Shown here one piece after another: positions 15,903 through 31,716 of a stretch of DNA of 64,000 nt; the stretch's first letter is position 1; each line of letters starts with the position of its first letter. A program made the position numbers and the translations under genes. The notes below the pieces were generated by a model. It was given only the letters and a program-made list of their open reading frames with translations, made no database searches and was not told the DNA's origin. This stretch comes from Butyricicoccus sp. (GTDB lineage: Bacteria > Bacillota > Clostridia > Oscillospirales > Butyricicoccaceae), in NCBI GenBank assembly GCA_017886875.1, contig JAGHIZ010000103.1, positions 1 to 64,000 of the forward strand. Reading direction: 5' to 3'.

Positions 15903-17051
15903 TTAACTTTTAATCAGTGTTAATGTTATATTGCTTCCTGTTTTTGTTCTATTGTTTTCATATCTAATATTAAATTCATCAAGCAATCGTCCTGCTTTTA
16001 CATTTAATTTTTTAGATAAGAAATTTGGCTTAATATCTTCATCTAAAATTTCAACTAATTCTGTCGCACTACCTTGCCAAACTGGATTTTCTTGTGTAAG
16101 TAATCCTGCTATTTTTTCTAACATTTTGTCTGGTGGTTCTTTCCAAAGCTCTAATTCTTTATGCTCTAAATTCCAGATTAAATGTTCTTGGTCTTTTGAA
16201 AGATATAACCTTTGGTCTGGTTGGTCACGACCTACAATTTCAAGTGTAGCGGTTCTATCTGTTCGTTTTTCCTTTTGCATTAAAAATGCTCCATCAGCAC
16301 AGCCAAGCAGTCCAGTAGTGCCAGAAATCATTTCAAAACTATCTACTGATGGCTGTTTTCTTGTATGATGTACAATCAAGATACAAATGCAATGTTTATC
16401 TGCAATTTCTTTTAGCTTGCTAATAATTTCATAATCACCAGCATAGCTATAAGTATCACTTTCAATTTCACGCACCTTTTGAAGTGTATCTATAATGATT
16501 AACTTTGTATTTTTCTTTTCATATATAAATCCTTCAAGTTGGTCATTTAAACCTTTCCCTATTTGATTTGCTGTTATTGAAAAGAATAAATCTCCCGTTG
16601 CATCTATGCCAAACATTCTTGACATACGTTCTTGTAATCTGCGATAATCATCTTCTAAAGCTAGATATAAGACTGAACCTTGCTTTACATCATAATCCCA
16701 TAGTTTCTTACCTGTGCTGACATGATAAGCGATTTGTGCAACTAAAAATGATTTACCGATTTTAGGTGCTCCTGCTAAAATATATGCTCCTGTATAGAGT
16801 AGACCATCTATAATAGATAGTCTACTTTGATATACATTATCATAGAGTTCATTTAATGATACAGTTGGAAGATAATTTGGGTCATCTAACCACATTTTTC
16901 TACGACACATTTCATAAAAATCTTCTTCATCAGCATTGTTTTCTTCTTCATAATTTGTTATACTTTCATTGGTATTATTATATGTTGGCTGTTCCCAGTC
17001 TGCTCCAACAGACTGAGCTGGAACAGCCATTTTTTCATCTTCAAATATCAT
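15903..17051 (-). CDS. RepA-type (AAA_25) replicative helicase of element A
   Basis: Hexameric DnaB/RepA-like helicase expected to unwind the element for extrachromosomal or transfer replication. Motifs: Walker A GAPKIGKS (94-101), Walker B KLIIIDTLQ, and ILIVHHTRKQ (motif H3). A C-terminal wHTH-like part (WQGSATELVEIL onward) resembles DNA-binding tails of plasmid RepA proteins. ATG at 17051 follows AGGAGG at nine bases. The longer frame from 17075 lacks such a site. It overlaps the small RHH gene upstream by 11 bases. Codons 7-21 lie in a 42-nt hairpin shared with the unrelated replication gene of element B. Iterons lie directly downstream. Confidence 0.88.
   Translation of the reverse strand: MIFEDEKMAVPAQSVGADWEQPTYNNTNESITNYEEENNADEEDFYEMCRRKMWLDDPNYLPTVSLNELYDNVYQSRLSIIDGLLYTGAYILAGAPKIGKSFLVAQIAYHVSTGKKLWDYDVKQGSVLYLALEDDYRRLQERMSRMFGIDATGDLFFSITANQIGKGLNDQLEGFIYEKKNTKLIIIDTLQKVREIESDTYSYAGDYEIISKLKEIADKHCICILIVHHTRKQPSVDSFEMISGTTGLLGCADGAFLMQKEKRTDRTATLEIVGRDQPDQRLYLSKDQEHLIWNLEHKELELWKEPPDKMLEKIAGLLTQENPVWQGSATELVEILDEDIKPNFLSKKLNVKAGRLLDEFNIRYENNRTKTGSNITLTLIKS
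16987..17028 (-). other. 42-nt hairpin at the 5' end of the repA coding region
   Basis: In coding sense: GGCTGTTCC pairs with GGAACAGCC (9 bp), a 4-nt bulge AGCT follows the first arm, then CAGTCTG pairs with CAGACTG (7 bp) around the loop TTGGAG. All pairs are perfect. The same 9-4-7-6-7-9 design, with different bases in both stems, lies at 29263-29304 in element B. Confidence 0.8.
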
Positions 17052-17376
17052 AATTTGTTTCCTCCTGCATTCCATTCATAATATTAGCAATGAGTTGTAT
17101 GATATCTAAAAGTTCATCATTTACATTTTGACCTGCTTCAATTCGCTTTAACTCATCTAAAACCTCTGCGAATTGATTTTTAAGTGCCTTATAAATTCTT
17201 GGATTTCCTTGTACAACAATATCTTTACAAAGAAGTCTGCGAATAATATAATCTTGCTTTGTAAGTCCTGTGAGTTTTACCTCTTTTTCAAGTTGCTTAT
17301 CCTCCTCTGGTGACATTCGGAACGCTATTGTTTTATTTCTCCAGCGTCCATTACAATCTAAATTTTTTAGTGACAT
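17041..17376 (-). CDS. Small RHH / MobC-like relaxosome protein of element A
   Basis: 111 residues. NKTIAFRMSPEEDKQLEKEVKLTGLTKQDYIIRRLL has the form of a ribbon-helix-helix DNA-binding segment followed by a helix, as in MobC-type mobilisation accessory proteins that help the relaxase open oriT. The C-terminal half is an amphipathic helix. Element B has a close homologue (29317-29649). It lies three bases after the integrase gene end and overlaps repA, so integrase, this protein and RepA are probably one transcript. It could instead be a repressor of the replication gene; the RHH fold does not distinguish these. Confidence 0.75.
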   Translation of the reverse strand: MSLKNLDCNGRWRNKTIAFRMSPEEDKQLEKEVKLTGLTKQDYIIRRLLCKDIVVQGNPRIYKALKNQFAEVLDELKRIEAGQNVNDELLDIIQLIANIMNGMQEETNYDI

Positions 17377-17379
17377 AGT

Positions 17380-18459
17380 TTAAACCTCCTTTTTATTTTC
17401 CATGTCAAGTTTATTTGCCATATCTGTTTGACGATTTGGAAACAGATGTGCATATCTATAAGTTATATCTATGCTTTCATGCCCTACTCTATCTGCAATA
17501 GCTAAGGCTGTGAAACCCATATCTATAAGCAAACTAATATGTGAATGCCGAATATCATGAATTCTTATACGTTTTACACCAGTTTGTTTACAGCCACGTT
17601 CCATTTCCCTTGCTAAATAATATTTACTTATCTGAAAAATTCTTGTTTCTTTATCAAGACCATAGATTTGTTTAAAATAATCTTGCATTTCTTCACAAAG
17701 AAAATGTGGCATTTTAATAATTCTATTGCTTTTTGGAGTTTTAGGGGTTGTTATAATATCTTCACCTTTTAAACGTTGATAAGACTTATTTATACTTACA
17801 GTTTCAGCTTTAAAATCAAAATCTTTTACGGTTAATGCTAATAGCTCACCCTCACGAATACCACACCAATAAAGCATTTCAAACGCATAAAATGAAATTG
17901 GTTTATCCATCATTGCATAAGAAAATTTTTTATATTCTTCTTTAGTCCAGAATTGCATTTCTTTGCGTTCTTCTGCACCCATATTTCCAGCTCTAGCTGC
18001 TGGATTTATTTGAAGTCCATAATACTTAACTGCATGATTAAATATTGCACTTAGCTGATTATGAACTGTTTTTAAGTACGTTTTAGAATATTTATTGCCT
18101 TTTATATCTTTTAAATTTCTTATTTCGTTTTGCCAAGCGATTATATCATTTGGTTTAATATCTGAAAGTTTACGATTTTTAAAGTAAGGCACAATCTTTT
18201 TATCAATAATACTTTCTTTTGTCAGCCAAGTGTTTAACTTTAACTTTGGTTTAATATCATTTTCATAAATCTTTACAAAACTTTCAAATGTCATATTTAC
18301 ATCTGACTGTTTTTGCATTAGAAACTCTCGTTCCCATTCTAAAGCCTCACGCTTAGTTGCAAAACCTCGTTTAAATTTTTGTTGTTTCTCTCCTTTCCAA
18401 TCTTTGTATCTAAACTGTACAAACCATGTACCATTGGTTTTATTTTTAAACGCTGCCAC
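17380..18459 (-). CDS. Tyrosine recombinase / integrase of element A
   Basis: Catalyses integration at and excision from the guaA 3' end. An N-terminal arm-binding region (GTWFVQFRYKDWKGEKQQK) is followed by a core-binding domain and the catalytic domain with CGIREGELLAL (Arg), HDIRHSHISLL (His-x-x-Arg) and VGHESIDITYRYAHLF (His, Tyr). The GTG at 18459 is preferred because AAAGGGGTG lies just upstream and the homologue in element B starts at the matching residue. The longer frame to 18498 lacks a ribosome site. It overlaps the excisionase gene by 14 bases. It is about two-thirds similar by eye to the integrase of element B and more distant from that of element L. Confidence 0.95.
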   Translation of the reverse strand: MAAFKNKTNGTWFVQFRYKDWKGEKQQKFKRGFATKREALEWEREFLMQKQSDVNMTFESFVKIYENDIKPKLKLNTWLTKESIIDKKIVPYFKNRKLSDIKPNDIIAWQNEIRNLKDIKGNKYSKTYLKTVHNQLSAIFNHAVKYYGLQINPAARAGNMGAEERKEMQFWTKEEYKKFSYAMMDKPISFYAFEMLYWCGIREGELLALTVKDFDFKAETVSINKSYQRLKGEDIITTPKTPKSNRIIKMPHFLCEEMQDYFKQIYGLDKETRIFQISKYYLAREMERGCKQTGVKRIRIHDIRHSHISLLIDMGFTALAIADRVGHESIDITYRYAHLFPNRQTDMANKLDMENKKEV

Positions 18460-18652
18460 TATTAACACCCCTTTCATGAGTTGCGTACATTCTATCATGG
18501 AAATATTTTCGGTCTACTCTACCATTGATAACAATAAAGCCTTTGCTTTCAAGTTCACTGTTAAGCTGTTTAATTACTCGATATGCAAATGCTTGTGATA
18601 CACCTAATTCCTCAGCAACTTCTTTTGCTCTCATATAAATTTTCTCTGACAT
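18446..18652 (-). CDS. Excisionase-like HTH protein of element A
   Basis: 68 residues: MSEKIYMRAKEVAEELGVSQ is a typical MerR/Xis winged-helix start (RAKEVAEELGVSQAFAYRVIKQL). It ends with a basic segment. It sits directly upstream of, and overlapping, the integrase gene, and is divergent from the XRE regulator. Small HTH proteins in this position (Xis of Tn916-type modules) direct excision and often regulate the int promoter. A homologue is at 30728-30928. Confidence 0.85.
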   Translation of the reverse strand: MSEKIYMRAKEVAEELGVSQAFAYRVIKQLNSELESKGFIVINGRVDRKYFHDRMYATHERGVNSGSV

Positions 18653-18716
18653 ATTTTTTCTTCCTTTCCATAGCTTTTAAAAGCTAAATTTTTGTATATT
18701 TGTTAAAAATATATCT

Positions 18717-18850
18717 TAAACCTTTTGGTTTAATGTTTTCCTAAATTATACTAAACCATTTTATTTAAGTCAATGGCTTAAATGTAAATAATTTTTAAAC
18801 ATATTTGTTTTATATTTTTATTGACTATTATAAAAAACATCTGATATACT
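18717..18850 (+). promoter_or_regulatory. Divergent control region of xis-int and XRE regulator
   Basis: For the plus-strand regulator, TTGACT (18821-18826) and TATACT (18845-18850) are spaced by 18 bases. The palindrome TAAACC-TTTT-GGTTTA (18717-18732) lies on the xis side and is a candidate operator. The arrangement is repeated before the element B regulator (TTGACT 31086, TATGCT 31110). Confidence 0.55.
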
Positions 18851-18887
18851 GAGCTTGATAAATTTATATTTAAGGGAGGTCTAATCA

Positions 18888-19406
18888 ATGGCAATAGGCG
18901 AAAGAATACGCTTTTTCCGCAATTTACGGGGTTTTACCCTAAAAGCTCTCGGTGTTGCTGCTGGTTTTTCTCAAAGAACTGCTGATATTAGAATGTCGCA
19001 GTATGAATCTGGAACAAGAACACCCAAAGCGGATATGACTGATAGACTTGCATACATATTTGATATTTCACCCAAGGCTTTAGACGTGCCAGATATTGAC
19101 ACTTACATAGGTTTAATGCACACATTATTTGCCCTTGAAGATATATACGGTCTTAAAATGTGTGATGTTAACGGCAAAGCAAGTCTACAAGTTGATGAAA
19201 CTAAAAATGATAAAGCCAATGAAGTTTTTAAAATGTTTGATGCTTGGAGAGAACAAGCAGTAAAATTACAAAAAGGTGAAATATCTAAAGAACAATACGA
19301 CCAATGGAGATATAATTACCCTGAATTTGACACCACTCAAAAATGGGCTAAAGTTCCACCTAAATGGCTTACTGATGCTCTTGTTAAGAAATTTGTAAAA
19401 GATTAA
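18888..19406 (+). CDS. XRE-family transcriptional regulator of element A
   Basis: 172 residues. The N-terminal helix-turn-helix (IGERIRFFRNLRGFTLKALGVAAGF..MSQYESGTRTPKADMTDRLA) is of the Cro/C1 type. The C-terminal part (GLMHTLFALEDIYGLK, EQAVKLQKGEISKEQYDQW) is shared almost unchanged with the protein at 31157-31669. ATG at 18888 follows AAGGGAGG. It is transcribed divergently from xis-int, so it most likely represses excision and integration genes, keeping the element in the chromosome. The DNA-binding helices differ more between the two copies than the C-terminus does, which would allow separate control of the two elements. Confidence 0.9.
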   Translation: MAIGERIRFFRNLRGFTLKALGVAAGFSQRTADIRMSQYESGTRTPKADMTDRLAYIFDISPKALDVPDIDTYIGLMHTLFALEDIYGLKMCDVNGKASLQVDETKNDKANEVFKMFDAWREQAVKLQKGEISKEQYDQWRYNYPEFDTTQKWAKVPPKWLTDALVKKFVKD

Positions 19407-19409
19407 AAA

Positions 19410-19448
19410 AATGGCTCTGCTGACACACAAAAAGTCAACAGAGCCATT
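19410..19448 (+). terminator. Terminator of the element A regulator
   Basis: AATGGCTCTGCTGAC pairs with GTCAACAGAGCCATT around a short loop (one bulge), with a few T residues after it. Confidence 0.75.
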
Positions 19449-19541
19449 GCTCATTTATTATATAATTATAGGTGTTAAAACCTTGTCACCTGCAAGCCTA
19501 TTGCAACACAATAAGAAATAAAGTAAACTCGGTTTTTAATA

Positions 19542-19561
19542 TGCTATCAAATTGCTATCAA
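19542..19561. repeat. Integrase arm-type repeats at the right end of element A
   Basis: TGCTATCAA occurs twice in tandem (19542-19550 and 19553-19561). The same pair, as TGTTATCAA, is found at 31789-31808 near the right end of element B, and TGCTATCAA occurs near 3203-3240 in the left end of element A. The rest of 19449-19663 is AT-rich and shows no gene. Confidence 0.55.
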
Positions 19562-19663
19562 GCGAAAATCGTAGCAAATTTAATTTGACTTTTAATAAGT
19601 TAAAATTGCGATTTAAAGGCATTTTCACAACTTTTTATATGGTTTAAAAGTCAATTTGTTAAA

Positions 19664-19686
19664 TTTTACTTATTCCCACTCGCCAA
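19664..19686. repeat. Attachment site att-2 (junction of elements A and B)
   Basis: Identical over 23 bp to 3082-3104. The core ATTCCCACTCG is at 19672-19682. The minus strand again reads GAG TGG GAA TAA, a copy of the guaA end. Confidence 0.85.
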
Positions 19687-19896
19687 GCCTTTCTAAATCC
19701 TTAACAAATTCGTTTAGAAAATATAACTTGTAGTGGTTTCTTTTGATACCAATTATACTATTTATATGGTCTTGTATACTGTTTATTATCAAATTATTAT
19801 CAGTGTAGTGTTATCACCAACAACACGATTATTTATATTATCTGTATTATATCAGATTATCTTATTCAATACAATAAAAAATCTATGCGTTACACA
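19687..19896. repeat. Left terminal region of element B
   Basis: Non-coding. TTTGATACCA (19742-19751), TATAC motifs, TTATCAAATTATTATCA (from about 19787) and TTATCACC follow in the same order as at the left end of element A, supporting the boundary. No gene seen. Confidence 0.5.
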
Positions 19897-21168
19897 TTAA
19901 ATCTCATCTATTAAACTTTTAATACAATTTTTTGCATTAAATAAATCAATAAATTCAACTCGTACATCAATACCATCAAGTGCTTCAAATTGTATTTTTT
20001 CTGATAGTTTATCTGTTCTTGGATATATTAGTGTTACATATTCTGCATTATATTTTTTCTGATAAACATACATTTGATACATATCTGATTGTGAAATACC
20101 ATAGTTTGCCTTATCCGAAGATAATATTTTCCATTTTGTGTCCATAACATAGACTTTATTATTAAATTGGCATTTTATAACTAAATCTGGTCGTATAGAA
20201 AATTTTTTACTAGGTTTATCAAATAAATAAAATGATTTATCCTGTACTGATATACAATACCTAGTTTTATTTATATATTTTTTCATAAGAAATGCAATGT
20301 ATTTCTCAAATAGGACTTCCATAGGAAACAACAATGCAATTGCAACTTCCGAACCTGTAAAAGATGTAAAACTCTTACCCATCATAAAAATTTTGCTCCA
20401 TATTAAAGCATTATTGTAATCTTTAGTATTACGATTTAAAATACACTTTTCAAAATCACTATTAACATCTATACATTTTGGCACTTCATCAAAGCTATTT
20501 AAAAGTATCTTTATATCTGTTTTGTTTTTAGTAGATTTGGAATGTTTATATAAGTATATAAGAGTGGTTTTTAATATACGATTTTCTGGTCTATTAACGC
20601 TAAATACATCATATTGTATATAATTTTTTTCTTTATGCGTATGATTATATTTTATGTGCTCTGAAAACTTTATTTTTCCTTTTAGAAAGGTAGCATTTTC
20701 TTCGATTAGTTCATAATTACATTTCAATCCACGCTTAACAATATAAAAAACTTCATCAATAAACATTCTTATAAATATATCTAATATATTTATTTTATCA
20801 CAACTTATATTTGCCGTTTGGAATGATTTATATGGATAATTATCTAATGTTTTTAGCATATCTAAAAGCAATTTTTTTGTTTTAATTATATAATCATCGC
20901 TCATATCTGAATATGTGATTTTAGGTAAGATTTCTATGCTTGTACCATCATTTAATACAATAATTCCAACATAATTTCTAACTGTAATGACTTTTCCTAT
21001 ACCTTTTTTAGTTGAAAGTCGCATAAATTCAAACGTGTCATCACATCGATTATTTAAAACAAATTGCTCTAATTTAGCAAATATTTGTTGCGGAAGTGTG
21101 ACATATCCCCCTATATCTCTGCCTGTTATAAATGAACCATATTCTTGTATTTGATAGATTGGTTTCAT
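19897..21168 (-). CDS. mcrC: McrC, nuclease subunit of McrBC restriction system
   Basis: Partner of the McrB motor; it cuts DNA carrying modified cytosine. The N-terminal part (GYVTLPQQIFAKLEQF, NYVGIIVLNDGTSIEILPKI) is the usual McrC opening. The C-terminal nuclease has RPDLVI (Asp328) and VMDTKWK (Asp343, Lys345), a PD-(D/E)xK site, then a conserved Gln-Met-Tyr-x-Tyr segment. Length 423 residues is normal. The ATG at 21168 follows AAAGGTG. It lies 26 bp after mcrB on the same strand, so the two form one transcript. Confidence 0.93.
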   Translation of the reverse strand: MKPIYQIQEYGSFITGRDIGGYVTLPQQIFAKLEQFVLNNRCDDTFEFMRLSTKKGIGKVITVRNYVGIIVLNDGTSIEILPKITYSDMSDDYIIKTKKLLLDMLKTLDNYPYKSFQTANISCDKINILDIFIRMFIDEVFYIVKRGLKCNYELIEENATFLKGKIKFSEHIKYNHTHKEKNYIQYDVFSVNRPENRILKTTLIYLYKHSKSTKNKTDIKILLNSFDEVPKCIDVNSDFEKCILNRNTKDYNNALIWSKIFMMGKSFTSFTGSEVAIALLFPMEVLFEKYIAFLMKKYINKTRYCISVQDKSFYLFDKPSKKFSIRPDLVIKCQFNNKVYVMDTKWKILSSDKANYGISQSDMYQMYVYQKKYNAEYVTLIYPRTDKLSEKIQFEALDGIDVRVEFIDLFNAKNCIKSLIDEI

Positions 21169-21194
21169 CTTTGCACACCTTTCTATGCATAAAT

Positions 21195-23213
21195 TTATAT
21201 TGTTCTATATGATTCTATATTTTCAAATGCAGCATTATTTATCTCATAACTATAACTATCATCTAAATCAATATCAACATCACCAAACAAATCAATATAA
21301 TCATTAATTTTAGCTATAATAAATTGACTATCTGGTGATGTCTTTTTCGTATCACCTAATACCAAACGAATTTTCTCATAATCCTCATAAAAATACTCCT
21401 GTAAAAGAGGAATTATATTATTTTTGAAAATATCAGATAATGTTTGTAAATTAGGATTATCTTTCAATGGCATAAAATAAGCATGACCTATTGTATGCTC
21501 TCTATCATATAAAACAGAAATACGCTTATTAAGCTTAATAAGTAGTTCACTTATTGATATATCATCTACAAAAACATCTTCTAAAACTTCAGGCTGTGGT
21601 AGCATCTCTTTAAATAAAAATCTGCGTCTTAACGCAGTATCTATCGTAGCAATCGAACGGTCAGCTGTATTCATAGTACCAATTAAATATATATTATTAG
21701 GTATTCCAAACGGTTTTTTACAATATGGTAGTTTAACTGTTAAACCCTCCATTTCACCAACACGTTTTGTAGGCTCTACTAATGTAATTAACTCACCAAA
21801 AATTTTAGATATATTTCCTCGATTTATTTCATCTATTATAAACACATAATTTTGTTTTGTGTAATTTACATTTAGATAATTTGTATTTATATAATTTTGA
21901 TTTAAATTTATATCTCTTGATAAGTTTCTATACTTTTCCATAATTTTATATACATCTGTTAGTGATATATTAGACATTTTATATACAGATGCTAATGTCA
22001 TAGTTACACCACCATTCGCTTCTAAAATATTTTCTTTAATACCTTTTACAATCCATTCAACCTTACGCAAACGTTTATAATATTTATATTCATCATGCCA
22101 TTCGTATTCACCAGTTACAACACCAATTGCATCAATAGTAGAGGCACTATAACACGAAAGCACTATATCACCTATTTTCATACGGTTAATAAATGCATTT
22201 AATACAATTTCTCCACCAAATTTAGTAAAATCAGTTTTATCTGTGATATCTTTTCCATAATCGTCCCAGCCAATTCGTATATGACTATTTTCCATGCATT
22301 CTGTTCTAGTAGGATTATCACCTGTTTTTTCCAATGACACTTTCCAAATATTAGGATTATTACCGATATTAAAATTGTTTTTATCTTTTTTTATAGGTGT
22401 AACCGCATTTTCACAAAAACGTTTAAATACACCAGACTCTACATCGTATTTTATATCGCCACTATTTTCATCTACAGTATCATCATTAGCAATCCTAGGC
22501 TTTATACCCTCAATAAATTCCTCATATCCATATGATTGATGAAATGTAGTAAACTCAATAAGACCTTGTTCTTTATAAGTATTATATCTATCTAGAATAT
22601 CAATATATTCTTCTTGCTGTATTTTATCAAGTTTTTCATTTTCTATAATAGCAACAGCATATATAACTGTATTATATGTTTTTCCTGTACCAGGAGGACC
22701 ATACAAAATAGTATTCAAACCTATATCTGTTTTTTTATCATTCTTTAATAAATCAATATCAATACTCATAAGTGCCTCCCTCAATTCAGGACGTATTTTC
22801 CAATAGTAGTTATCAAGAAATCTTTTATTAGCTTCAAAACGTCGCTTATTTCCAACAAAGGAAATCATATAATATTCTTTATCATACTTATATTTATCAA
22901 AATTGTATTTTTTCTTAATCTTCATACCAAAATTACTAATTAATCTATGATAGTAACTATATGATTTCCCATATTTTTTTATTAAATCATCAAGTCTAAA
23001 TTCTCCTCCAACTTCTAAAATTTTCATAAATACATCAATTATTTCAAAATTTGCGATTGACCTATCATTCAATATTGATATCCAAATTTCTGTTGTAATA
23101 TTAGTATTATATTCTGGCATACGTTTCCAAGAAGGTACTATATATCCTCCTCTTCCTAGTTTTTTCCCTTTAATCATTCTATCAAAATAAGTTTCTTTAT
23201 TTTCACTTTCCAC
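21195..23213 (-). CDS. mcrB: McrB-type GTPase with inserted EVE-like domain
   Basis: Motor and recognition subunit. The N-terminal about 160 residues form an unrecognised, probably wHTH-containing region. The AAA+ domain has Walker A GPPGTGKT (about 172-179), then EFTTFHQSYGYEEFIEGIKP, Walker B FIIDEINRGNISKIFGEL and the McrB signature GTMNTADRS. Between Walker A and B, about 130 residues (WKVSLEKTGDNPTRTECMEN..HIRIGWDDYG..MKIGDIVLSCY..DAIGVVTGEYEW) resemble the EVE/PUA-like fold, which binds modified bases. Start: GTG at 23213 has AAGG nine bases upstream; a GTG at 23222 has none. It is followed by mcrC. Confidence 0.92.
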   Translation of the reverse strand: MESENKETYFDRMIKGKKLGRGGYIVPSWKRMPEYNTNITTEIWISILNDRSIANFEIIDVFMKILEVGGEFRLDDLIKKYGKSYSYYHRLISNFGMKIKKKYNFDKYKYDKEYYMISFVGNKRRFEANKRFLDNYYWKIRPELREALMSIDIDLLKNDKKTDIGLNTILYGPPGTGKTYNTVIYAVAIIENEKLDKIQQEEYIDILDRYNTYKEQGLIEFTTFHQSYGYEEFIEGIKPRIANDDTVDENSGDIKYDVESGVFKRFCENAVTPIKKDKNNFNIGNNPNIWKVSLEKTGDNPTRTECMENSHIRIGWDDYGKDITDKTDFTKFGGEIVLNAFINRMKIGDIVLSCYSASTIDAIGVVTGEYEWHDEYKYYKRLRKVEWIVKGIKENILEANGGVTMTLASVYKMSNISLTDVYKIMEKYRNLSRDINLNQNYINTNYLNVNYTKQNYVFIIDEINRGNISKIFGELITLVEPTKRVGEMEGLTVKLPYCKKPFGIPNNIYLIGTMNTADRSIATIDTALRRRFLFKEMLPQPEVLEDVFVDDISISELLIKLNKRISVLYDREHTIGHAYFMPLKDNPNLQTLSDIFKNNIIPLLQEYFYEDYEKIRLVLGDTKKTSPDSQFIIAKINDYIDLFGDVDIDLDDSYSYEINNAAFENIESYRTI

Positions 23214-23318
23214 AACAATCACCCTTACTAATAACAGCTATTATTACTAATTATTATACAAATTTAATTCAAAAACATCAAGGAATATAAGTTTATTATT
23301 AGAATTTATAATCAATAG

Positions 23319-23759
23319 TTAACTTAACTTTGTAATATTCTTATTTATTTTTTCTGAATAGCTAACTAATGCTTCAGTATTACTAGCTGAATAAAATACA
23401 TAAGCAATAAGATAATCAACCTTATCAACCATATATCTATTAGCTCTTACAATTGCAAATTTTTGTGGCACATTTTCCATTCCTTCTGGATAATAACTTG
23501 AATCAAAATCATTTGATATTTCTATTTTACTTTTATATGGGTGATATGGTAGCAACAATATCAACCTTATATCTTTATAATATCTTTTGGCATAAATAAC
23601 AGCTTTTGTAGCCAATCTATCAAAATTGCCATAATGACCGACATAAAAATCTGTTACACCATACTCCACTATGTGTTTTTCAACAGCCTCGAGTATTTGT
23701 GAAAACAGCCTGTCTGGTGCATCACGATGTCCAATAAAGAAACAACTTTTACCTTTCAT
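23319..23759 (-). CDS. SLOG-family (DUF1273/YpsA-like) nucleotide-binding protein
   Basis: 146 residues with a Rossmann-like SLOG fold. The opening KSCFFIGHRDAPDRL is the family signature, GHYGNFDRLATKAV is the second glycine-rich nucleotide-binding element, and RLILLLPYHPYK follows. SLOG proteins bind nucleotides or nucleotide-derived ligands, and several act in defence or stress signalling. ATG at 23759 has AGGAG upstream; an earlier ATG-like start at 23774 does not. It is divergent from an XRE regulator, with a palindrome between them. Its ligand cannot be told from sequence. Confidence 0.8.
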   Translation of the reverse strand: MKGKSCFFIGHRDAPDRLFSQILEAVEKHIVEYGVTDFYVGHYGNFDRLATKAVIYAKRYYKDIRLILLLPYHPYKSKIEISNDFDSSYYPEGMENVPQKFAIVRANRYMVDKVDYLIAYVFYSASNTEALVSYSEKINKNITKLS

Positions 23760-23783
23760 ATTCTTACTCCTCATAGTTGTATA

Positions 23784-23804
23784 TATCGTTAAAATTATAC
23801 GATA
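23784..23804. promoter_or_regulatory. Palindromic operator between SLOG gene and XRE gene
   Basis: TATCGT (23784-23789) and ACGATA (23799-23804) are exact inverted repeats nine bases apart, between the two divergent starts. A likely binding site for the adjacent XRE protein. Confidence 0.5.
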
Positions 23805-23873
23805 ACAATGATTAAATTACAACGATTTATCAAAGTATAATTTACGAAGAATACAAGTATAAAGGTGGTTACT

Positions 23874-24179
23874 ATGAAAGATATTCTTGCAACAATAAGC
23901 AAATACCGTCAAGAACGAGGTTGGACAGAGTATCAACTTGCTGAGCGTTCTGGTTTACCACAATCAACTATCTCATCTTGGTATCGTAAGAATATGATAC
24001 CAACTGTTCCATCTCTTGAAAAAATCTGCCTTGCATTTGGTATTACACTATCACAACTCTTTGCAGATAATGACTGTCCAGTTTCCTTGACCAAATCACA
24101 ACAAAAACTACTTGAACGCTGGTCAAGACTTAATGAAGAACAACAAGCTGTAGTATTTGCCCTTATTGATAAAATGTAA
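23874..24179 (+). CDS. Small XRE-family regulator
   Basis: 101 residues with a Cro/C1-type HTH: ISKYRQERGWTEYQLAERSGLPQSTISSWYRKNMIP, then SLEKICLAFGITLSQLF. The C-terminal region (SLTKSQQKLLERWSRLNEEQQAVVFALIDKM) is the common Firmicutes extension seen in stand-alone chromosomal regulators. ATG at 23874 follows AAGGTGG; a GTG at 23865 would overlap this site. Probably controls itself and the divergent SLOG gene through the palindrome at 23784-23804. Confidence 0.88.
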   Translation: MKDILATISKYRQERGWTEYQLAERSGLPQSTISSWYRKNMIPTVPSLEKICLAFGITLSQLFADNDCPVSLTKSQQKLLERWSRLNEEQQAVVFALIDKM

Positions 24180-24183
24180 AATT

Positions 24184-24221
24184 ACCGCCAGTATAGCATA
24201 TAACTAAAACTGGCGGTTTGA
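24184..24221 (+). terminator. Terminator after the small XRE gene
   Basis: ACCGCCAGT (24184-24192) pairs with ACTGGCGGT (24209-24217), followed by TTTG. It may also serve the convergent gene ending at 24233. Confidence 0.65.
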
Positions 24222-24232
24222 CTTATCTTATA

Positions 24233-25222
24233 TCATATCTTTTTGTTTTTATCGAGCATATTTTTTAGCGACAAAACTGCAGCGAATAACACACCTGATA
24301 CTGGCCATATAATCCATGTATTTCCCCACTTATTTGTATAAAAACTTATCGCCAAATACACTGCAGTAATAAAACACCAATAAAATCCTGTCAGTGCTTC
24401 ATTATTTTTTGCTTCTTGTTTCTTTTCTCTTGTATAATCTTCTTCCTCTAATAATTTTTGGTATGTTCCCCATATTGCAACAACTTTTATAATAACATTA
24501 ACACCAATTGCAATCATAATAAGCGTAATGCAAATTGCACAAATAGTAAAAAATTCATTTTTTACAGAACTAGATAAAAATAAAGGAACTGCACTTATAA
24601 TACAGGTGAAAATTCCAAATACTAAGCCTTTTTTATAATTATTTTCATACGCATCTCGTTTGCTTTTTATAATTCCTGAAACACCATATTCAGTCAAGAT
24701 TTTTTCTTTCTCTAGATATTCATATTTCCCTAATTTCATGCCATATAAAATAAATATTACAACTGCATATGCAATTATAATTAGAAGTATACTGCTACCA
24801 ATAGCAACAGCAATATTTTCCTTTAGTGAAATTATTGTATATTCTGATGCACTTTGTAAAAACAATAATAAAACTGGTGATAACACACACATACTAACTG
24901 CTAAAGCAATTTTACGATAACAAATATTTGCTAAATTCATATATTCATTTGCTTCTTCTAAGGAAATAGTATGTATTTTCGTTTCGTCAATTTCTATATT
25001 CTCTGTATATTGTTTCTCATCAACTATATTTTCTTTTAGCAAATAATCGGTGCTAACTTCAAAAATTTCACTCATCTTCATAATTTTATCAAGATCTGGT
25101 ATTGAGGTCATAGATTCCCACTTAGAAACAGATTGACGTGAAACACCTAAATTCATGGCAAGTTCTTCTTGTGACCAACCTTTCTGTTTTCTGAGTTTTA
25201 TAATTTTTTCTGCTAAAATCAT
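24233..25222 (-). CDS. Membrane-anchored XRE-family protein
   Basis: 329 residues. The N-terminal HTH (LAEKIIKLRKQKGWSQEELAMNLGVSRQSVSKWESMTSIPDLDKI) is followed by a linker and then six or so hydrophobic segments (about residues 105-330: ALAVSMCVLSPVLLLFL, IAVAIGSSILLIIIAYAVV, GLVFGIFTCIISAVPLFL, ICITLIMIAIGVNVII and two near the end). XRE proteins with a membrane tail occur in Firmicutes, where the tail is thought to sense a membrane or peptide signal; the target is unknown. ATG at 25222 with GGGAGGG upstream is preferred over the frame beginning at 25276. Confidence 0.85.
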   Translation of the reverse strand: MILAEKIIKLRKQKGWSQEELAMNLGVSRQSVSKWESMTSIPDLDKIMKMSEIFEVSTDYLLKENIVDEKQYTENIEIDETKIHTISLEEANEYMNLANICYRKIALAVSMCVLSPVLLLFLQSASEYTIISLKENIAVAIGSSILLIIIAYAVVIFILYGMKLGKYEYLEKEKILTEYGVSGIIKSKRDAYENNYKKGLVFGIFTCIISAVPLFLSSSVKNEFFTICAICITLIMIAIGVNVIIKVVAIWGTYQKLLEEEDYTREKKQEAKNNEALTGFYWCFITAVYLAISFYTNKWGNTWIIWPVSGVLFAAVLSLKNMLDKNKKI

Positions 25223-25397
25223 TTCAATCCCTCCCTTAAATCTATTAGGTTTTGTTGATTTAATTATAGCAAACATTATACTTTCTATCCACCAATTAGA
25301 CTGTAAACTTTGTCAATCATAAGTTGCAAATATGATATTTACGCTTTACATTGGTGTAAATACTAGTTTTTATTCTTATTTTTTATATAGTAAAATA

Positions 25398-26615
25398 CTA
25401 TCTTTCCATATCTCGTTGTCTATCCTTATTATTTAATTGTTTTCTATCAACATCAGTTGATAAGACATTTTTAATAAACTCCATAACAAGTTCTGGTGCT
25501 TTTAAAGTTGCCTTAATAAAATCTTTAGTCTGTTCTTTTAACTTCTCATAACGATTTTTCCAAATATCAGCATCTCTCTTAGCATTTTCAAGTTTTTGTT
25601 CTAAGTCAGATATTTTTGCTTTTGCTGTAACACCTTTTTTAGCAAGCTCTTTTAAATTTATAGCTTCGTTTTGTGTTAGTTGAACCTTGCCACCAAACAA
25701 TGTCTTGCTACCCATATTGTCAATCTCTGAAAAAGTAATAGCAATTTTATTTTGAACCTGTGTTTTCTGCTTGGCTTTATTAAATATACGCTCTTGTTTC
25801 TCTGTTTTTGCTTCTAACTCATATAACCTTTCCTGTTCTTTAATAACTTTAAACTGAGTAACGGTCAGATGTTCTTCTGTGCTGCCACGTTCACCACGTT
25901 CAATATCAGTGTATCCAGCTTTTCGCATAGCATCAAAGAAATCATCTTGCAGAACGCTATAAGATTTTTTGAGAACCTTTTTACCTGTTGCAGTTCTCAT
26001 GGTTTTTCCGTTCTTATCAAGCACTTCTTTAGATGACCATTTTTTACTGCTACTAACTTGCATAACAGTTTCTTTGACTGTGCCAACTAAAGATTTATCT
26101 TTACAACGCTTTGACCATAAAACCTGCTTTTCTACAACTGGCACATACACAACGTGTAAGTGGTAATGATAAACATCATGTCCTAAAGCTTCAGACATTG
26201 CCCTGTTACGTTCATCAGCGTGCATGACTGCGGATAAAATGTATTGCTCACCACCAACGATTTTCACTGCTGCTTTATAAGCGTCCTCATAGAATTTTTT
26301 AGCAAATTCATAACCTCCATGATTATGAAAATAAGCTGAATTTACATCAAATATTAATTCTCCATAATGAACAGCATCTGGTTTTAAACCACGAGTTGAA
26401 ATGGTCTTTTCCTGTTCCATTTGCTTAAACATCTCTGCATAGCTGCCTGTTGGTGTTTTAAAATGAACATTGTATTTTGTACGTTCTAAAATTACATCTG
26501 GATTATTGTAACTTTCATTTTCACGCTCATTATGCCTTTGAGCGTTTGCAATATCTGTTTCTTTTAAATTGCGATTTCTCACAAATGTGCGATGAATACC
26601 GTCGTTTCTTGCCAT
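25398..26615 (-). CDS. MobV-family relaxase of element B
   Basis: 405 residues, homologous along its length to the relaxase of element A. NAQRHNEREN, the signature HADERNRAMSEALGHD and the histidine cluster YHYHLHVVYVP are all present, followed by KRCKDKSLVGTVKE and a coiled-coil tail. It acts at the oriT-like block upstream (26675-26832). The first about 260 residues are far more conserved between A and B than the coiled-coil tail, consistent with a conserved catalytic domain and a drifting C-terminus. Confidence 0.93.
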   Translation of the reverse strand: MARNDGIHRTFVRNRNLKETDIANAQRHNERENESYNNPDVILERTKYNVHFKTPTGSYAEMFKQMEQEKTISTRGLKPDAVHYGELIFDVNSAYFHNHGGYEFAKKFYEDAYKAAVKIVGGEQYILSAVMHADERNRAMSEALGHDVYHYHLHVVYVPVVEKQVLWSKRCKDKSLVGTVKETVMQVSSSKKWSSKEVLDKNGKTMRTATGKKVLKKSYSVLQDDFFDAMRKAGYTDIERGERGSTEEHLTVTQFKVIKEQERLYELEAKTEKQERIFNKAKQKTQVQNKIAITFSEIDNMGSKTLFGGKVQLTQNEAINLKELAKKGVTAKAKISDLEQKLENAKRDADIWKNRYEKLKEQTKDFIKATLKAPELVMEFIKNVLSTDVDRKQLNNKDRQRDMER

Positions 26616-26674
26616 AGAACTCCTTTCTCGCTTATAAGCGGTTCGAGTAACTCAAGTGAAAAGCACTTCTGCAG

Positions 26675-26832
26675 AAGTGTAATAACCCACTATGACACTT
26701 TCACTTTGTGCAAAGATGTCAGTGGGCTCTACGAGGTGGAATGGGGCTTTGCCCCGTTGTCTGCGGACAACTCCCCAGCAGGGTGTACCCTTTGAAAAGG
26801 GTACCCTGCACCCCACCTAAACTTTAATTTTT
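26675..26832. other. oriT-like structured block of element B
   Basis: Nearly identical to 15391-15561 of element A and in the same place, directly upstream of the relaxase gene. It keeps every hairpin of that copy: GGGGC..GCCCC, GTTGTC..GGACAAC and GTACCCTTT..AAAGGGTAC. The high identity across non-coding DNA contrasts with the more diverged relaxase genes. Confidence 0.6.
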
Positions 26833-26845
26833 TACTCACGAGTTT

Positions 26846-26870
26846 ATGCAGTAAATGCAATAAATGCAAT
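26846..26870. repeat. Short TGCAATAAA-type direct repeats
   Basis: Three near copies of ATGCA(G/A)TAA in tandem between the oriT-like block and the replication gene, in the position occupied by the GTGACGATG iterons in element A. May be a small origin repeat. Confidence 0.35.
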
Positions 26871-26876
26871 ATATTC

Positions 26877-29324
26877 TTAAATGGCTGGATTTACAAATAT
26901 TCTTATATCTGCTGGTCTGCCTGCTGATTGTCGTTCTGGCTGCTCTATTCGTATATATCCATACCCTTCTAAAAGCTCAAGTGTTGGAAAAATTTCTTCT
27001 GTCTTTTTGAAAAATTTACCTCTGCACATTTGAAATAACTCTGAACGCTTAATTTTCTCAACTCCCTTTTTCTTGAGTTTAGCAATTACAAATTTTGCTT
27101 TTTGTATACTTAAATCTGTACCCATCATGGAATAAGCATAACTTGAATGTGCTAAAAAATATTTTCCTATTTGAATGGCTCTAGATATTGTTTTATCCGA
27201 TATTTGATTTTTATTATCTAACATATCGACTGCATGAAGTAAGCCTGCAATCCTCAGCACAGCACCAATATATTTGCTTGCCCAATCCGAAATGGCTTGA
27301 CCTTCTCCTACAAGAAAACGCTCATGTTCATCAAAATAATCCGCCATAACCATTAATGCTTTATCCGATAGTTTTAATGTTTGTATTTCTAAATTTTGAA
27401 TTGACATAAGTTTAAAAATCATATCTCTATAAGCAGATTTTACTTCTGGCAGAATTGCTGGTGTCCTAAACACACGATTGCCAATTCTTGATGGCGGTGA
27501 TGAATATAAAAATCTTGCAATCAGTCCTCGTCCACTCATAGTTGTGTTTGACATAATTTCATCTAATACACTTGGTTGTATAGATAAAATTGCAGATAAA
27601 GCTGGGTGCATAATACATTCAGCTTCACGAGTCATTCTATCTACATAAACTGCATCACCACAATGACCTTTAAGCCAAATATCAATATTTGCTTTATTGG
27701 AATATCTACCTGCCATAATATCAAATATACCGCCCTCAGTTGAAATGACTGAAAATGTACCTCCATTTGCTGCCATTAAACTTGTAAGTGCTTCACTTGA
27801 ACAATCATCTGCAAAAAATCTCACAGGTTTTAATTCTGGAGTTTGCTCTAATTCACTTTTTAAATATTGAAGTTCATAGTCAAGGTCTTTGCTTTCCTTA
27901 CGTTCAAGTTGTCTTTGTATGCCTGCGATTTGTCTTTCTAATGTTTCCCTCTTGAGATTATTTGCACGAATTTCATCACTTCTGGATTTATTATATTCTT
28001 GTTCATACTCATATAAAAACTCCGTCATATCTCGCATAACACTGGATTTTCTTTCACCTGGTGATGCAATTACAACAGTATATAAACTGAGTGGCTCATA
28101 ATAACCCTCTGTTCCCTCGACTTTGTATTTACCTTGTAAGCACACTGCTAACACACCTAAACTAATAACCGCTGCCATATCTGGTGAAGTTTGACTATGT
28201 TCAGCAACTGCATTTACATAGTTTTTAACTGTAACAGGCAGTGCATCTACTGGAAACCTTGGCAACTCATTCCACTGTGGTGTTAATGGAATAAGTGGTG
28301 CAAAACCTGTTGTTTGCTGTGTTTCCTGTTTAGCAATTTGTGGTTGTCTTGGTGTATACACATCTTTGCAATGCTGGATAGCTTTTTGAATTGTAATTGC
28401 ACCATAAGTTGTACCCGATTGTTTTCTATCCCATTTTTCTCGCATAAGTCCAGACTGGCGAAACAGCTTATCCATTAAGACTGCATCTTTGCCTGTCCAA
28501 AAAGCAAGCTGGCTACAAAGTGCTAAATCTGCCTCAGAGTGTGATAGATAACCATTAGTTGAACCACTCCAAAGACTGGAAAATACAGTACCGTTTCTGC
28601 TAGATTTTGCTAAATTTATAATCTCATTTTCGCTCAAATCTGAATTTACTGCATTTATTGCATTTCTTGCATTAGTTTCAGGTCTGCACATATACTTTTT
28701 TAAGAGCTGTTTTAGTTCTTCTGTACGGTCACCAAATTCATAATTCTCACAGCACTCACCCGTAACAGTTACATACTTGTTAGTCGCACCTGCAACATAA
28801 ACTTCAATTCCTGCCTTATGGTTCATAATGTAAAACTTAGATTTATCATATACAAAACCATCAGCACAAAATAGAATGTGCAAACCTTTTCTACTTGGAC
28901 TAAATTCTGTATAGCTGTGCATTAAGTTTACTATTTCATATGCTGTATTGCTTAATTCGCCTGTTTCTGAAATACAATGGTCTAAATCAATGGCACAAAT
29001 ACCATTAAATATTCCTATGCCTATACCATCATAGCCATTAGCATTAACAGCGGTTTTATAATCTGTAAAGCTGGTTTTATCATTGCTCTTTGCCATTTGT
29101 TCAGTACATGGATTATATGGGACTTTGGTTTTTCTACCATCACGTTCTTCATACTTCCAACAACAGAAAAGTCCTTTTTCTTTTATATAGCTTGGAAAAT
29201 CTAATGTTTTTTGATTGTATATTTGTGTATTTTGGGTTATAATATTATTGGTTTTAATATTGGACTGTCCCCCATCTGTTGGAGCAGATGGACTTGGGAC
29301 AGTCATTTTTTTATTTTCATTCAT
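26877..29324 (-). CDS. Primase-helicase (prim-pol-like N-terminus, DUF3987 C-terminus) of element B
   Basis: About 815 residues. After an N-terminal segment shared with the element A helicase, FPSYIKEKGLFCCWKYE begins a prim-pol-like domain with the acidic motif CAIDLDHCI and SPSRKGLHILF, followed by a primase-C-terminal-like region. From about residue 370 a DUF3987 (YfjI-type) helicase domain follows, with the unusual P-loop ASPGERKSS, VRFFADDCSSEAL, ISTEGGIFDIMAGRYS and GRGLIARFL. Proteins of this kind replicate plasmids, phages and IMEs. ATG at 29324 has AAGGAGG nine bases upstream; the frame from 29348 lacks this. It overlaps the RHH gene by eight bases, the same operon place as repA in element A. 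Confidence 0.87.
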   Translation of the reverse strand: MNENKKMTVPSPSAPTDGGQSNIKTNNIITQNTQIYNQKTLDFPSYIKEKGLFCCWKYEERDGRKTKVPYNPCTEQMAKSNDKTSFTDYKTAVNANGYDGIGIGIFNGICAIDLDHCISETGELSNTAYEIVNLMHSYTEFSPSRKGLHILFCADGFVYDKSKFYIMNHKAGIEVYVAGATNKYVTVTGECCENYEFGDRTEELKQLLKKYMCRPETNARNAINAVNSDLSENEIINLAKSSRNGTVFSSLWSGSTNGYLSHSEADLALCSQLAFWTGKDAVLMDKLFRQSGLMREKWDRKQSGTTYGAITIQKAIQHCKDVYTPRQPQIAKQETQQTTGFAPLIPLTPQWNELPRFPVDALPVTVKNYVNAVAEHSQTSPDMAAVISLGVLAVCLQGKYKVEGTEGYYEPLSLYTVVIASPGERKSSVMRDMTEFLYEYEQEYNKSRSDEIRANNLKRETLERQIAGIQRQLERKESKDLDYELQYLKSELEQTPELKPVRFFADDCSSEALTSLMAANGGTFSVISTEGGIFDIMAGRYSNKANIDIWLKGHCGDAVYVDRMTREAECIMHPALSAILSIQPSVLDEIMSNTTMSGRGLIARFLYSSPPSRIGNRVFRTPAILPEVKSAYRDMIFKLMSIQNLEIQTLKLSDKALMVMADYFDEHERFLVGEGQAISDWASKYIGAVLRIAGLLHAVDMLDNKNQISDKTISRAIQIGKYFLAHSSYAYSMMGTDLSIQKAKFVIAKLKKKGVEKIKRSELFQMCRGKFFKKTEEIFPTLELLEGYGYIRIEQPERQSAGRPADIRIFVNPAI
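29263..29304 (-). other. 42-nt hairpin at the 5' end of the primase gene
   Basis: In coding sense GACTGTCCC pairs with GGGACAGTC (9 bp), bulge AAGT, then CCATCTG pairs with CAGATGG (7 bp) around the loop CTCCAA. It matches the element A hairpin (16987-17028) in every length. Its loop is the reverse complement of the other loop. Confidence 0.8.
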
Positions 29325-29649
29325 AAACACTATCCTCCTTAAATCCATTCATAATATATGCGATTAAGCTTATAGTGTCTAACAGTTCATCATTAGGTTT
29401 TTGACCCGTTTCTATGCGTTTTAACTCATTTAAAACCTCTGCTAATTGATTTCTAAGTGCTTTATAAACTCTTGGATTTCCTTGTACCACAATATCTTTG
29501 CAAAGAAGTCTTCGAATAATATAATCCTGCTTTGTAAGTCCTGTGAGTTTTACAGCTATTTCAAGCTGTTTGTTTTCTTCTGGTGACATTCTAAATGAAA
29601 TAGTTTTACTTCTAAAACGGTTTTTACCGTCCATATTTTTGGCTGACAT
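29317..29649 (-). CDS. Small RHH / MobC-like relaxosome protein of element B
   Basis: 110 residues, close homologue of 17041-17376 (SFRMSPEENKQLEIAVKLTG and DYIIRRLLCKDIVVQGNPR are nearly unchanged). A ribbon-helix-helix start and a helical tail. It shares one base with the integrase stop, so integrase, this gene and the primase are one translation-coupled set. Confidence 0.75.
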   Translation of the reverse strand: MSAKNMDGKNRFRSKTISFRMSPEENKQLEIAVKLTGLTKQDYIIRRLLCKDIVVQGNPRVYKALRNQLAEVLNELKRIETGQKPNDELLDTISLIAYIMNGFKEDSVYE

Positions 29650-30725
29650 TATAAATTGCCCCTTTCTTCATTTAACTTGTTAGCCATTTCATCTTGTCTT
29701 GATGGGAATAGATGTGCATATCTATAAGTTATATCTATGCTTTCATGCCCTACTCTATCTGCAATAGCTAAGGCTGTGAAACCCATATCAATCAGATGCG
29801 ATATATGGCTATGCCTCAAATCATGGATTCTTATACGTTTTACACCTGTTTGTTTACTACCACGCTCCATTTCTTTTGTTAAATAATGCTTTGTAAATGG
29901 GAAAATACGGTCATTTTCACCTACATTATAAAACATTTTTATATATTCATTTATCTCCTCACAGAGAAAATGTGGCATTTTAATAACCCTGTTACTTTTT
30001 CTTGTTTTAGGGGTTGTTATAACATCTTGACCTTTTAGACGTTGATAAGACTTATTTATACTTACAGTTTCAGCTTTAAAATCAAAGTCCTTAGGAGTTA
30101 GTGCTAATAATTCACCCTCACGAATACCACACCAATAAAGCATTTCAAACGCATAATATGACATTGGTTTATCCATCATAGCATCTGCAAATTTTAGATA
30201 TTCTTCTTTAGTCCAAAACAGCATTTCTCTAGGTTCTTCACTGCCCATTCTGCCAGCTTTTGCTGCTGGATTGCTCTGTAAACCGTAATATTTAACTGCA
30301 TGATTAAAAAGACAGCTAAGTTGTGTATGAATATTCTTTAAATAATCTGATGAATAACACTTTCCTTGATTATTTTTAATATTTCTAATCTCATTTTGCC
30401 AATCAATCACATCTCTAGCTGTTATTTCAGATAGCTTTCGGTCTTTAAAATAAGGCAGAATTAACTTTTTAATAACACTTTCCTTGCTAAGCCAAGTGTT
30501 AAGTTTTAATTTTGGCTTAATATCTTTCTCATAGAGTGTTACAAAACTTTCAAAAGTCATTCCTAAATCAGCTTGTTTTTGCATTAAGAACTCTCGTTCC
30601 CACTCCAAAGCCTCACGTTTAGTTGCAAAACCTCGTTTGCATTTCTGTTTGCGTTTACCTTGCCAATCGGTAAACCAGCACATACAATACCATGTGCCAT
30701 TGTCATTATTTTTGTAAATTGGCAT
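29649..30725 (-). CDS. Tyrosine recombinase / integrase of element B
   Basis: 358 residues. N-terminal arm-binding region (NGTWYCMCWFTDWQGKRKQK), core-binding domain, then the catalytic set CGIREGELLAL, HDLRHSHISHL and VGHESIDITYRYAHLF. Very similar to the integrase of element A, in particular over the catalytic domain, which agrees with both using the same guaA core. ATG at 30725 lies two bases after the excisionase stop. The element next to guaA, B, presumably entered last or regenerated the site next to the gene. Confidence 0.95.
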   Translation of the reverse strand: MPIYKNNDNGTWYCMCWFTDWQGKRKQKCKRGFATKREALEWEREFLMQKQADLGMTFESFVTLYEKDIKPKLKLNTWLSKESVIKKLILPYFKDRKLSEITARDVIDWQNEIRNIKNNQGKCYSSDYLKNIHTQLSCLFNHAVKYYGLQSNPAAKAGRMGSEEPREMLFWTKEEYLKFADAMMDKPMSYYAFEMLYWCGIREGELLALTPKDFDFKAETVSINKSYQRLKGQDVITTPKTRKSNRVIKMPHFLCEEINEYIKMFYNVGENDRIFPFTKHYLTKEMERGSKQTGVKRIRIHDLRHSHISHLIDMGFTALAIADRVGHESIDITYRYAHLFPSRQDEMANKLNEERGNL

Positions 30726-31675: not shown

Positions 31676-31716
31676 AAAGGTCTTGCTGATTTTTATATCA
31701 ACAAGACCTTTAATTA
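31676..31716 (+). terminator. Terminator of the element B regulator
   Basis: AAAGGTCTTG (31676-31685) pairs with CAAGACCTTT (31702-31711), followed by AATTA. Ends the regulator transcript before the att site and the convergent guaA. Confidence 0.75.

Follow-up and report, generated by a model that had tools for sequence, protein, structure and literature searches.

Antisense RNAs that control plasmid copy number are a known class of regulator, and two of them come closest in anatomy to the RNA predicted here. RNAII of plasmid pMV158 is an antisense RNA of 48 nucleotides (nt) that blocks rep translation and consists of a 5' tail plus one terminator hairpin with a 6-nt loop (PMC4485353). RNAI (Inc) of the I-complex plasmids is a single stem-loop of ~60 nt with an interior loop in its stem, which kisses stem-loop I (PMC10724649) and disrupts the pseudoknot required for repZ translation (PMC9977716). 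In the S004-repA region of the Salmonella genomic island SGI1, repA translation is controlled via an upstream leader peptide and a stem-loop (PMC7826253). The replication of excised integrative mobilizable elements was called never studied in 2017 (PMC5704250), and that of SGI1 has been studied since then (PMC7826253). The present analysis concerns two integrative mobilizable elements, A and B, in a 64,000-nt stretch of DNA from Butyricicoccus sp. (assembly GCA_017886875.1, contig JAGHIZ010000103.1, positions 1 to 64,000), hereafter called the window. On the evidence of sequence, each of them very probably specifies a cis-encoded antisense RNA of the copy-control type (countertranscribed RNA, ctRNA) that would control its replication (rep) gene, a brake that small mobile elements in gut bacteria appear to apply to their replication.

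The start of each rep gene holds a 42-nt hairpin on the minus (gene) strand, at 16987-17028 in element A and at 29263-29304 in element B, exactly where an earlier note on this DNA had placed them. The layout described there, a 9-bp stem, a 4-nt bulge, a 7-bp stem and a 6-nt loop with perfect pairing, is correct, every pair being Watson-Crick in both copies. Read on the minus strand, hairpin A (17028-16987) is GGCTGTTCC-AGCT-CAGTCTG-TTGGAG-CAGACTG-GGAACAGCC and hairpin B (29304-29263) is GACTGTCCC-AAGT-CCATCTG-CTCCAA-CAGATGG-GGGACAGTC. On the gene strand, the predicted folding energies are -26.2 kcal/mol (z -4.5) for A and -25.2 kcal/mol (z -6.1) for B. No equally stable sequence was obtained in 200 shuffles of either hairpin, which places both far from chance. 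The 12-mer core CTGTTGGAGCAG is found without mismatch only at these two hairpins in the 2.79-Mb genome, once in each orientation. No family of Rfam 15 matches either hairpin at its gathering score. In a permissive Rfam scan of six loci (E up to 5), a hairpin was matched only once, by ErsA/Pseudomon-1 in the antisense orientation of A; its 22.2 bits fall short of the gathering score, which is 50, and with an E of 1.8 the match was taken as chance.

Relatives were collected by protein and by structure. A protein search with the pair of NikA-like proteins encoded upstream of the two rep genes yielded 23 loci in genome contigs and six in viral contigs, and the same hairpin is present right after NikA in 20 of these 29 loci. 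A tblastn search of plasmids with NikA returned two records only. The covariance-model search from both copies that the earlier note had proposed was run with a model built from 22 hairpins, covering the 42 nt alone, with the promoter region outside the model. Matches were obtained in 13/87 genomes of the family (E up to 0.01) and, at E up to 0.001, in 12/391 genomes of the class, 52/394 of the order and 4/299 of the phylum; the four genome samples overlap, and all were searched with Infernal's stricter filters. The 103 matches in 112 loci were reduced to 94 loci by merging identical hairpins with near flanks, and these contain 86 unique hairpins; the locus that represents a shared hairpin is not the same across analyses. 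A NikA-like protein is encoded upstream in 84/94 loci. With start codons picked by their Shine-Dalgarno (SD) match, 82/94 loci have a hairpin that begins 20 or 23 nt past the first base of the start codon.

The stems are maintained by matched changes. Among the 22 hairpins, 91.5% of the cells pair, 10 of the 16 pairs have changed on both sides and 47 cells are doubly changed. Among the 86, 89.5% of the gene-strand cells pair, 12 of the 16 pairs have changed on both sides and the doubly changed cells rise to 178, so that covarying pairs do increase with more sequences, the test that had been suggested for them. The covariation score of the 86 hairpins is 0.339, against 0.154 after shuffling and at most 0.145 in slid controls; none of 500 shuffles reaches this score or the observed number of doubly changed cells. 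When the changes were placed by parsimony on a tree of NikA, which was found at 77 of the 86 loci, 93 replacements of one Watson-Crick pair by another were needed, a number that tree error and recombination could inflate.

An antisense RNA and its target must both have structure, and both strands of the hairpin do, the antisense strand more so. It pairs in 1325/1376 cells (96.3%), against 1232/1376 (89.5%) for the sense strand, because an A-C opposition on one strand is a G-U pair on the other; the gene strand has 22 G-U, 115 A-C and 29 other mismatched cells. When the hairpins were recoded synonymously so that the peptide was preserved, the antisense strand reached a z of -3.56, with 70/86 hairpins more stable than all 100 recodings, and the sense strand a z of -2.76, with 37/86. 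Antisense folds better than sense in 73/86, by a mean of -3.8 kcal/mol against -0.25 kcal/mol in the recoding null. The assignment of the strand rests mainly on this null and on the promoter and terminator described below, since the wobble asymmetry of 22 to 115 weakens once codons are controlled.

On the antisense strand, the hairpin is flanked by transcription signals. A promoter pattern, TTG…N17…TATAMT, precedes it by 16, 19 or 22 nt, and a T-run follows it, with T at 8.5 of 12 positions against 3.2 of 12 on the sense side. A promoter score of at least 10 (12 hexamer matches plus 1 for TG) is reached at 47/85 loci on the antisense strand, at 1/85 on the sense strand, at 3/396 sites deeper in the genes and in 11/425 shuffles; L021, with too little downstream DNA, was excluded from the promoter counts. 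The spacer is 17 nt in 77/85. When the spacer was set to 17 nt, the best -10 hexamer lies at one of the three distances in 83/85 and reads TATACT in 46/85 and TATAAT in 27/85, and the -35 starts with TTG in 82/85. This -10 is in frame in 84/85, with the codon ATA in 80 and a codon for another residue than isoleucine in four, so that all 80 isoleucines are ATA. As these counts came from a best-match pick, the same pick was run on four deeper windows of the same genes, where it gave TTG in 29/324 and ATA for 12/73 isoleucines. When no pick was made, 55/56 isoleucines encoded 25 nt after the hairpin use ATA, compared to 174/950 in the rest of the genes. The negative control consisted of at least 80 viral-contig loci with the 14-mer core, apparently chance matches, of which 78 were usable. 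Among the matches listed, the outer stem is present in one of these 78, and none has at least 8/12 hexamer matches at the three fixed distances, against 83/85 survey loci.

These signals bear on the simplest alternative, a cis-acting mRNA hairpin alone, in which a stem-loop in the first rep codons tunes translation or mRNA stability and no antisense RNA exists. The sense hairpin is stable and selected in its own right, as its z against recodings indicates, and its distance from the start codon is fixed. However, the better structure is on the opposite strand, which also has the conserved promoter and the T-run around the hairpin, and the inversion of the loop would be unexplained. We therefore regard this alternative as improbable. 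A single-stranded DNA signal that takes its fold on the transferred strand, be it a priming site, a single-strand origin or a relaxase site, would suit elements that encode Mob_Pre relaxases and helicase- or primase-type genes, and it is compatible with the strand bias and with the loop inversion, which is neutral for a double-stranded site. Such a signal leaves unpredicted the sigma-type promoter, with its constant 17-nt spacer and its three in-frame distances, as well as the T-run and the ATA bias, and the position of the hairpin is tied to the rep start codon; it is very improbable. The priming-site and recombination-hotspot options of the earlier note share this defect, as neither explains the promoter, the T-run or the fixed distance to the start codon.

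Conservation of the protein is a further alternative. The leader peptide K-T-x-P-x-x-S-V-G-A-D-x-x-Q-S...N-x-I-x would then be a functional N-terminal motif and the hairpin its by-product. Of the 92 loci with an open reading frame (ORF), most encode this peptide in recognisable form, stand-alone leader ORFs included. However, the V-G-A codons encoded by the loop are nearly invariant at synonymous sites (GTT 62/62, GGC 60/62, GCA 62/62), A-P-T or A-A-T replaces V-G-A where the loop is reverse-complemented, and recodings that keep the peptide are seldom as stable. A conserved protein with free synonymous sites, the pattern that would have spoken against structure, is thus not what was found, and this reading is extremely improbable. 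The hairpin is under structural selection that the peptide does not explain, and the earlier proposal of selection on structure is upheld, with covariation far above shuffles.

Several observations weigh against the antisense RNA. The codon-controlled wobble test is weak, with deviations at 11/108 sites where the sense strand would wobble and at 67/400 where the antisense strand would. A consensus scan of the window lists neither promoter A nor promoter B, whose -35 hexamers match at only 3/6 positions, and no terminator there; the terminator is absent from this simple scan probably because its stem pattern cannot bridge the 4-nt bulge. Further pair types number 26 against 23.8 after shuffling in the 86 hairpins, a value reached by 28/500 shuffles, and in the 22-hairpin set 465/500 shuffles reach the observed value. 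Nine of the 29 NikA loci found by protein lack the hairpin, and three of the nine still have a rep gene next (AAA_25 in L038 and L043, VapE-like in L037). No NikA was detected upstream in 10/94 loci, and two loci (L121 and L126) have no ORF in the hairpin frame, L126 with an aberrant loop as well. Finally, the surveyed sequences are related, and counts of sequences therefore overstate the number of independent events.

The loci without the 42-nt hairpin are varied. In L043 (4318-4444), NikA is followed by AAA_25, and two other strong stem-loops occupy the position of the hairpin; L037 (4639-5868) lies in a Collinsella contig and has a VapE-like primase gene after its NikA-like gene. The outer stem (GACCGTTCC/GGAACAGTC) and an antisense site resembling a -10 persist in L036 (2535-2660) around a different, longer middle, possibly a second loop architecture; this locus was counted among the nine NikA loci lacking the hairpin and stands outside the hairpin counts. 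In the six of these nine loci that remain beside L037, L038 and L043, no replication gene was found among the complete ORFs of at least 90 amino acids in the available flank, which in L034 ends within 260 bases.

If the antisense RNA is the correct reading, a promoter firing backward from inside the rep start would make an RNA of ~65 nt with a short 5' tail, the hairpin and a U-run, and the hairpin would double as its transcription terminator. In the predicted folds of the RNAs of A and B, at -27.2 and -28.0 kcal/mol, a tail precedes a single bulged hairpin, which a U-run follows. The mRNA of integrase (int), nikA and rep would bear the complementary hairpin 20 or 23 nt past the first base of the start codon of rep or of the leader ORF. 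The two loops would kiss, aided by a U-turn (YUNR) in whichever loop has it, and zip to a duplex reaching ~13-16 nt from the start codon, probably inside or against the initiating ribosome. By binding its target in this way, the RNA would block translation initiation of the helicase or primase and so repress rep; replication of the excised element would be held down in proportion to copy number, whose control would be the purpose of the circuit. The predicted duplex gain is -68.8 and -62.6 kcal/mol with the cognate mRNA, against -6.6 and -1.9 kcal/mol with the non-cognate one. Translational control of replication genes was the closest of the options offered before; what it missed is that the better structure, the promoter and the terminator belong to the opposite strand and point to an antisense RNA.

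The loop carries TT (UU) at its first positions on the sense side in 72/86 hairpins and on the antisense side in 12/86. A strict YUNR stands at loop positions 1-4 of one partner in 75/86, and the orientation of the loop has changed at least seven times on the NikA tree. The loops TTGGAG and CTCCAA, noticed earlier as reverse complements, follow naturally from antisense pairing, because the U-turn may lie in either kissing partner.

In most loci the leader is fused to rep, the ORF that holds the hairpin being at least 200 amino acids long in 68/92. In 12/94 loci, the hairpin sits in a separate ORF of 43-51 codons that precedes an AAA_25 ORF; repression in this subclass would act through leader translation, and in four loci (L025-L028) of the ten that were folded, the leader end is predicted to mask the next SD. 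Together with 12 ORFs preceded by a short leader, the 68 long ORFs make up 80 rep ORFs, of which 75 match AAA_25 (Pfam). The other five were taken as those of element B (DUF3987 with an NrS-1 HBD domain), L078 (DUF5906/Pox_D5), L085 (CHC2 zinc ribbon), L016 and L017. The latter two are cut by contig ends and have N-terminal sequence in common with element B; a single Pfam scan gave no name for L016, and the tally of 80 leaves L017 without one. The regulator has thus been kept while the replication protein changed. In three loci no intact rep seems to follow the leader: L058 has a stop shortly behind it, L120 has rep-like sequence in another frame, and in L124 no ORF was found there.

The gene order is the same in both elements, a tyrosine integrase, a NikA-like protein, rep and then a Mob_Pre relaxase (Table 1), and this content is the make-up of integrative mobilizable elements. 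The NikA-like proteins of A and B are 75% identical, and the DNA alignment extends past NikA to take in the rep start and the hairpin. This makes the hairpin the end of a homologous module and not a coincidence: both copies close an integrase–NikA module that reaches into the opening codons of two rep genes that are otherwise unrelated. The claim that the hairpins lie in very different settings holds for the rep bodies farther downstream, which are unrelated, and fails for the settings themselves, which are not independent. The ORF starts first listed for rep are longest-ORF starts; good SD sequences support later ones instead, whose first base lies 23 nt (A) or 20 nt (B) before the hairpin. 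The same leader precedes AAA_25, DUF3987, DUF5906/Pox_D5 and CHC2-type genes, so swapping has occurred downstream of it, but a recombination hotspot, or a small palindromic mobile element, serving the exchange of rep genes behind a common leader is of almost negligible probability, as the hairpin is continuous with the NikA module, the promoter and terminator would be unexplained, and swapping can result from keeping the regulator.

Table 1. Positions of the hairpins, predicted transcription signals and module genes in the window.
Feature	Positions	Strand	Remarks
Hairpin A	16987..17028		Putative mRNA target stem-loop, loop UUGGAG; putative antisense RNA terminator/kissing hairpin, loop CUCCAA
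Hairpin B	29263..29304		Sense loop CUCCAA, antisense loop UUGGAG; inverted relative to A
Antisense promoter A, -35 (predicted)	16936..16941	+	TTGTTT; 17-nt spacer; 3/6 match; TTG in 82/85 relatives
Antisense promoter A, -10 (predicted)	16959..16964	+	TATACT; 22 nt before hairpin
Antisense promoter B, -35 (predicted)	29215..29220	+	TTGTAT; 17-nt spacer; 3/6 match
Antisense promoter B, -10 (predicted)	29238..29243	+	TATAAT; 19 nt before hairpin
Antisense RNA A (predicted)	16971..17036	+	~66 nt; putative start ~7 nt after -10; putative end in T-run 17030-17035
Antisense RNA B (predicted)	29250..29312	+	~63 nt; putative ends; T-run 29306-29312
repA, element A	15903..17051	-	AAA_25 RecA-type ATPase/helicase; presumed regulated gene; SD-supported start 17051, longest-ORF start 17075
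Replication gene, element B	26877..29324	-	DUF3987 and NrS-1 polymerase-like HBD domain; presumed regulated gene; SD-supported start 29324, longest-ORF start 29348
NikA-like mobilization protein, element A	17041..17376	-	Upstream, same direction; overlaps rep start
NikA-like mobilization protein, element B	29317..29649	-	Upstream, same direction; overlaps rep start
Tyrosine integrase, element A	17380..18498	-	Module head
Tyrosine integrase, element B	29649..30725	-	Module head
Mob_Pre (MobV-type) relaxase, element A	14069..15310	-	Pfam; MobV below NCBIfam cut-off
Mob_Pre (MobV-type) relaxase, element B	25398..26615	-	Pfam; MobV below NCBIfam cut-off

Other features surround the module. In element A, the interval from the relaxase to repA contains an AT-rich stretch enclosed by three GGTGACGAT units in head-to-tail order and three inverted ATCGTCACC units (15566-15596 and 15872-15900), an arrangement that looks like an iteron-type origin. 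The iteron GTGACGA (at least three copies) was found downstream of rep in only 4/43 relatives and is thus not part of the module. Two near-perfect inverted repeats of one kind with matched stem changes, 19410-19448 (AATGGCTCTGCTGAC/GTCAACAGAGCCATT) and 31676-31711 (AAAGGTCTTGCTGAT/ATCAACAAGACCTTT), directly follow helix-turn-helix genes at 18888-19406 and 31157-31669 (HTH_3, barely at the cut-off), and are possibly terminators. A glmS ribozyme (Rfam RF00234, 90.2 bits) lies at 41312-41475 on the minus strand, upstream of the ORF 39396-41231.

At the sequence level, the locus carries a promoter pattern directed against the rep leader, an antisense stem-loop with an intrinsic terminator, and full complementarity to the message near the ribosome-binding site, all of them features by which a ctRNA is recognised. 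RNAII of pMV158, the repB countertranscript, is similar in its short tail, its single terminator hairpin with a 6-nt loop and its place opposite the rep leader, and differs by the lack of U-turn loops, by pairing via its 5' tail and by an intergenic target (PMC4485353). Here, in contrast, one partner has a loop with UU at its start, the target is part of the coding start and rep is AAA_25 or DUF3987. No operon of a CopG-type repressor with a pMV158-type RepB was found here, the order being integrase, NikA-like, AAA_25/DUF3987; the Rep of pMV158 is of the RepB type, unlike these. CopA/CopT of plasmid R1 has a longer two-hairpin RNA, an auxiliary CopB and a different Rep. It resembles the present case in that antisense control reaches rep by way of the translation of a leader peptide (title cited in PMC7826253).

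The RNAI/Inc of the I-complex (IncI, IncK, IncB) shares with the RNA predicted here its size, the single stem-loop with an interrupted stem and the kissing (PMC10724649). A U-turn loop in one partner is a further likeness, in view of the strict YUNR found here, whereas the leader is a separate peptide there and mostly fused to rep here. No IncFII/IncB-type Rep protein was found among the 80 rep ORFs (75 AAA_25; the rest DUF3987, DUF5906, CHC2 or none). The target loop of the I-complex plasmids, which we take to be UUGGCG, was not confirmed by the literature search. SGI1 is itself a mobilizable element, and its leader-peptide coupling resembles the separate-leader loci; PMC7826253 does not mention an antisense RNA, and the RepA of SGI1 is IncN2-related. 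The antisense RNA of Bacillus subtilis dnaA is likewise directed at a replication initiator's mRNA, in a Gram-positive organism, but the gene is chromosomal and the RNA overlaps its 5' untranslated region (PMC12112137). For antisense RNA in integrative elements, no matching system appeared, by title or abstract start, among the open-licence papers listed, and this is not proof of absence.

A broader proposal is tentative, and we consider it rather unlikely as a whole. The cassette may be a portable antisense governor that, placed in the first codons of an AAA_25 gene, a DUF3987/DUF5906 primase-helicase or a CHC2 primase, would set copy number; inversion of the loop would flip the U-turn and give mutually blind specificity, which may let A and B co-replicate in one cell. 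Insulation by loop inversion is an appealing idea for A and B but fits 4/12 genomes compared (G000, G049, G520 and G797) and fails in eight, with identical hairpins in G788 and G798; the two copies of G753 are so alike that duplicate removal kept one. G049, a second genome of the same genus, has the same TTGGAG/CTCCAA opposite-loop pair (L050 and L016) as the elements of the window.

The antisense RNA would represent a concrete, testable control circuit of a large group of elements, with matches in 52/394 genomes sampled in the order and a place before at least four unrelated types of replication protein. The loop-inverted variants form a natural series on which to test whether either member of a kissing pair can supply the U-turn.

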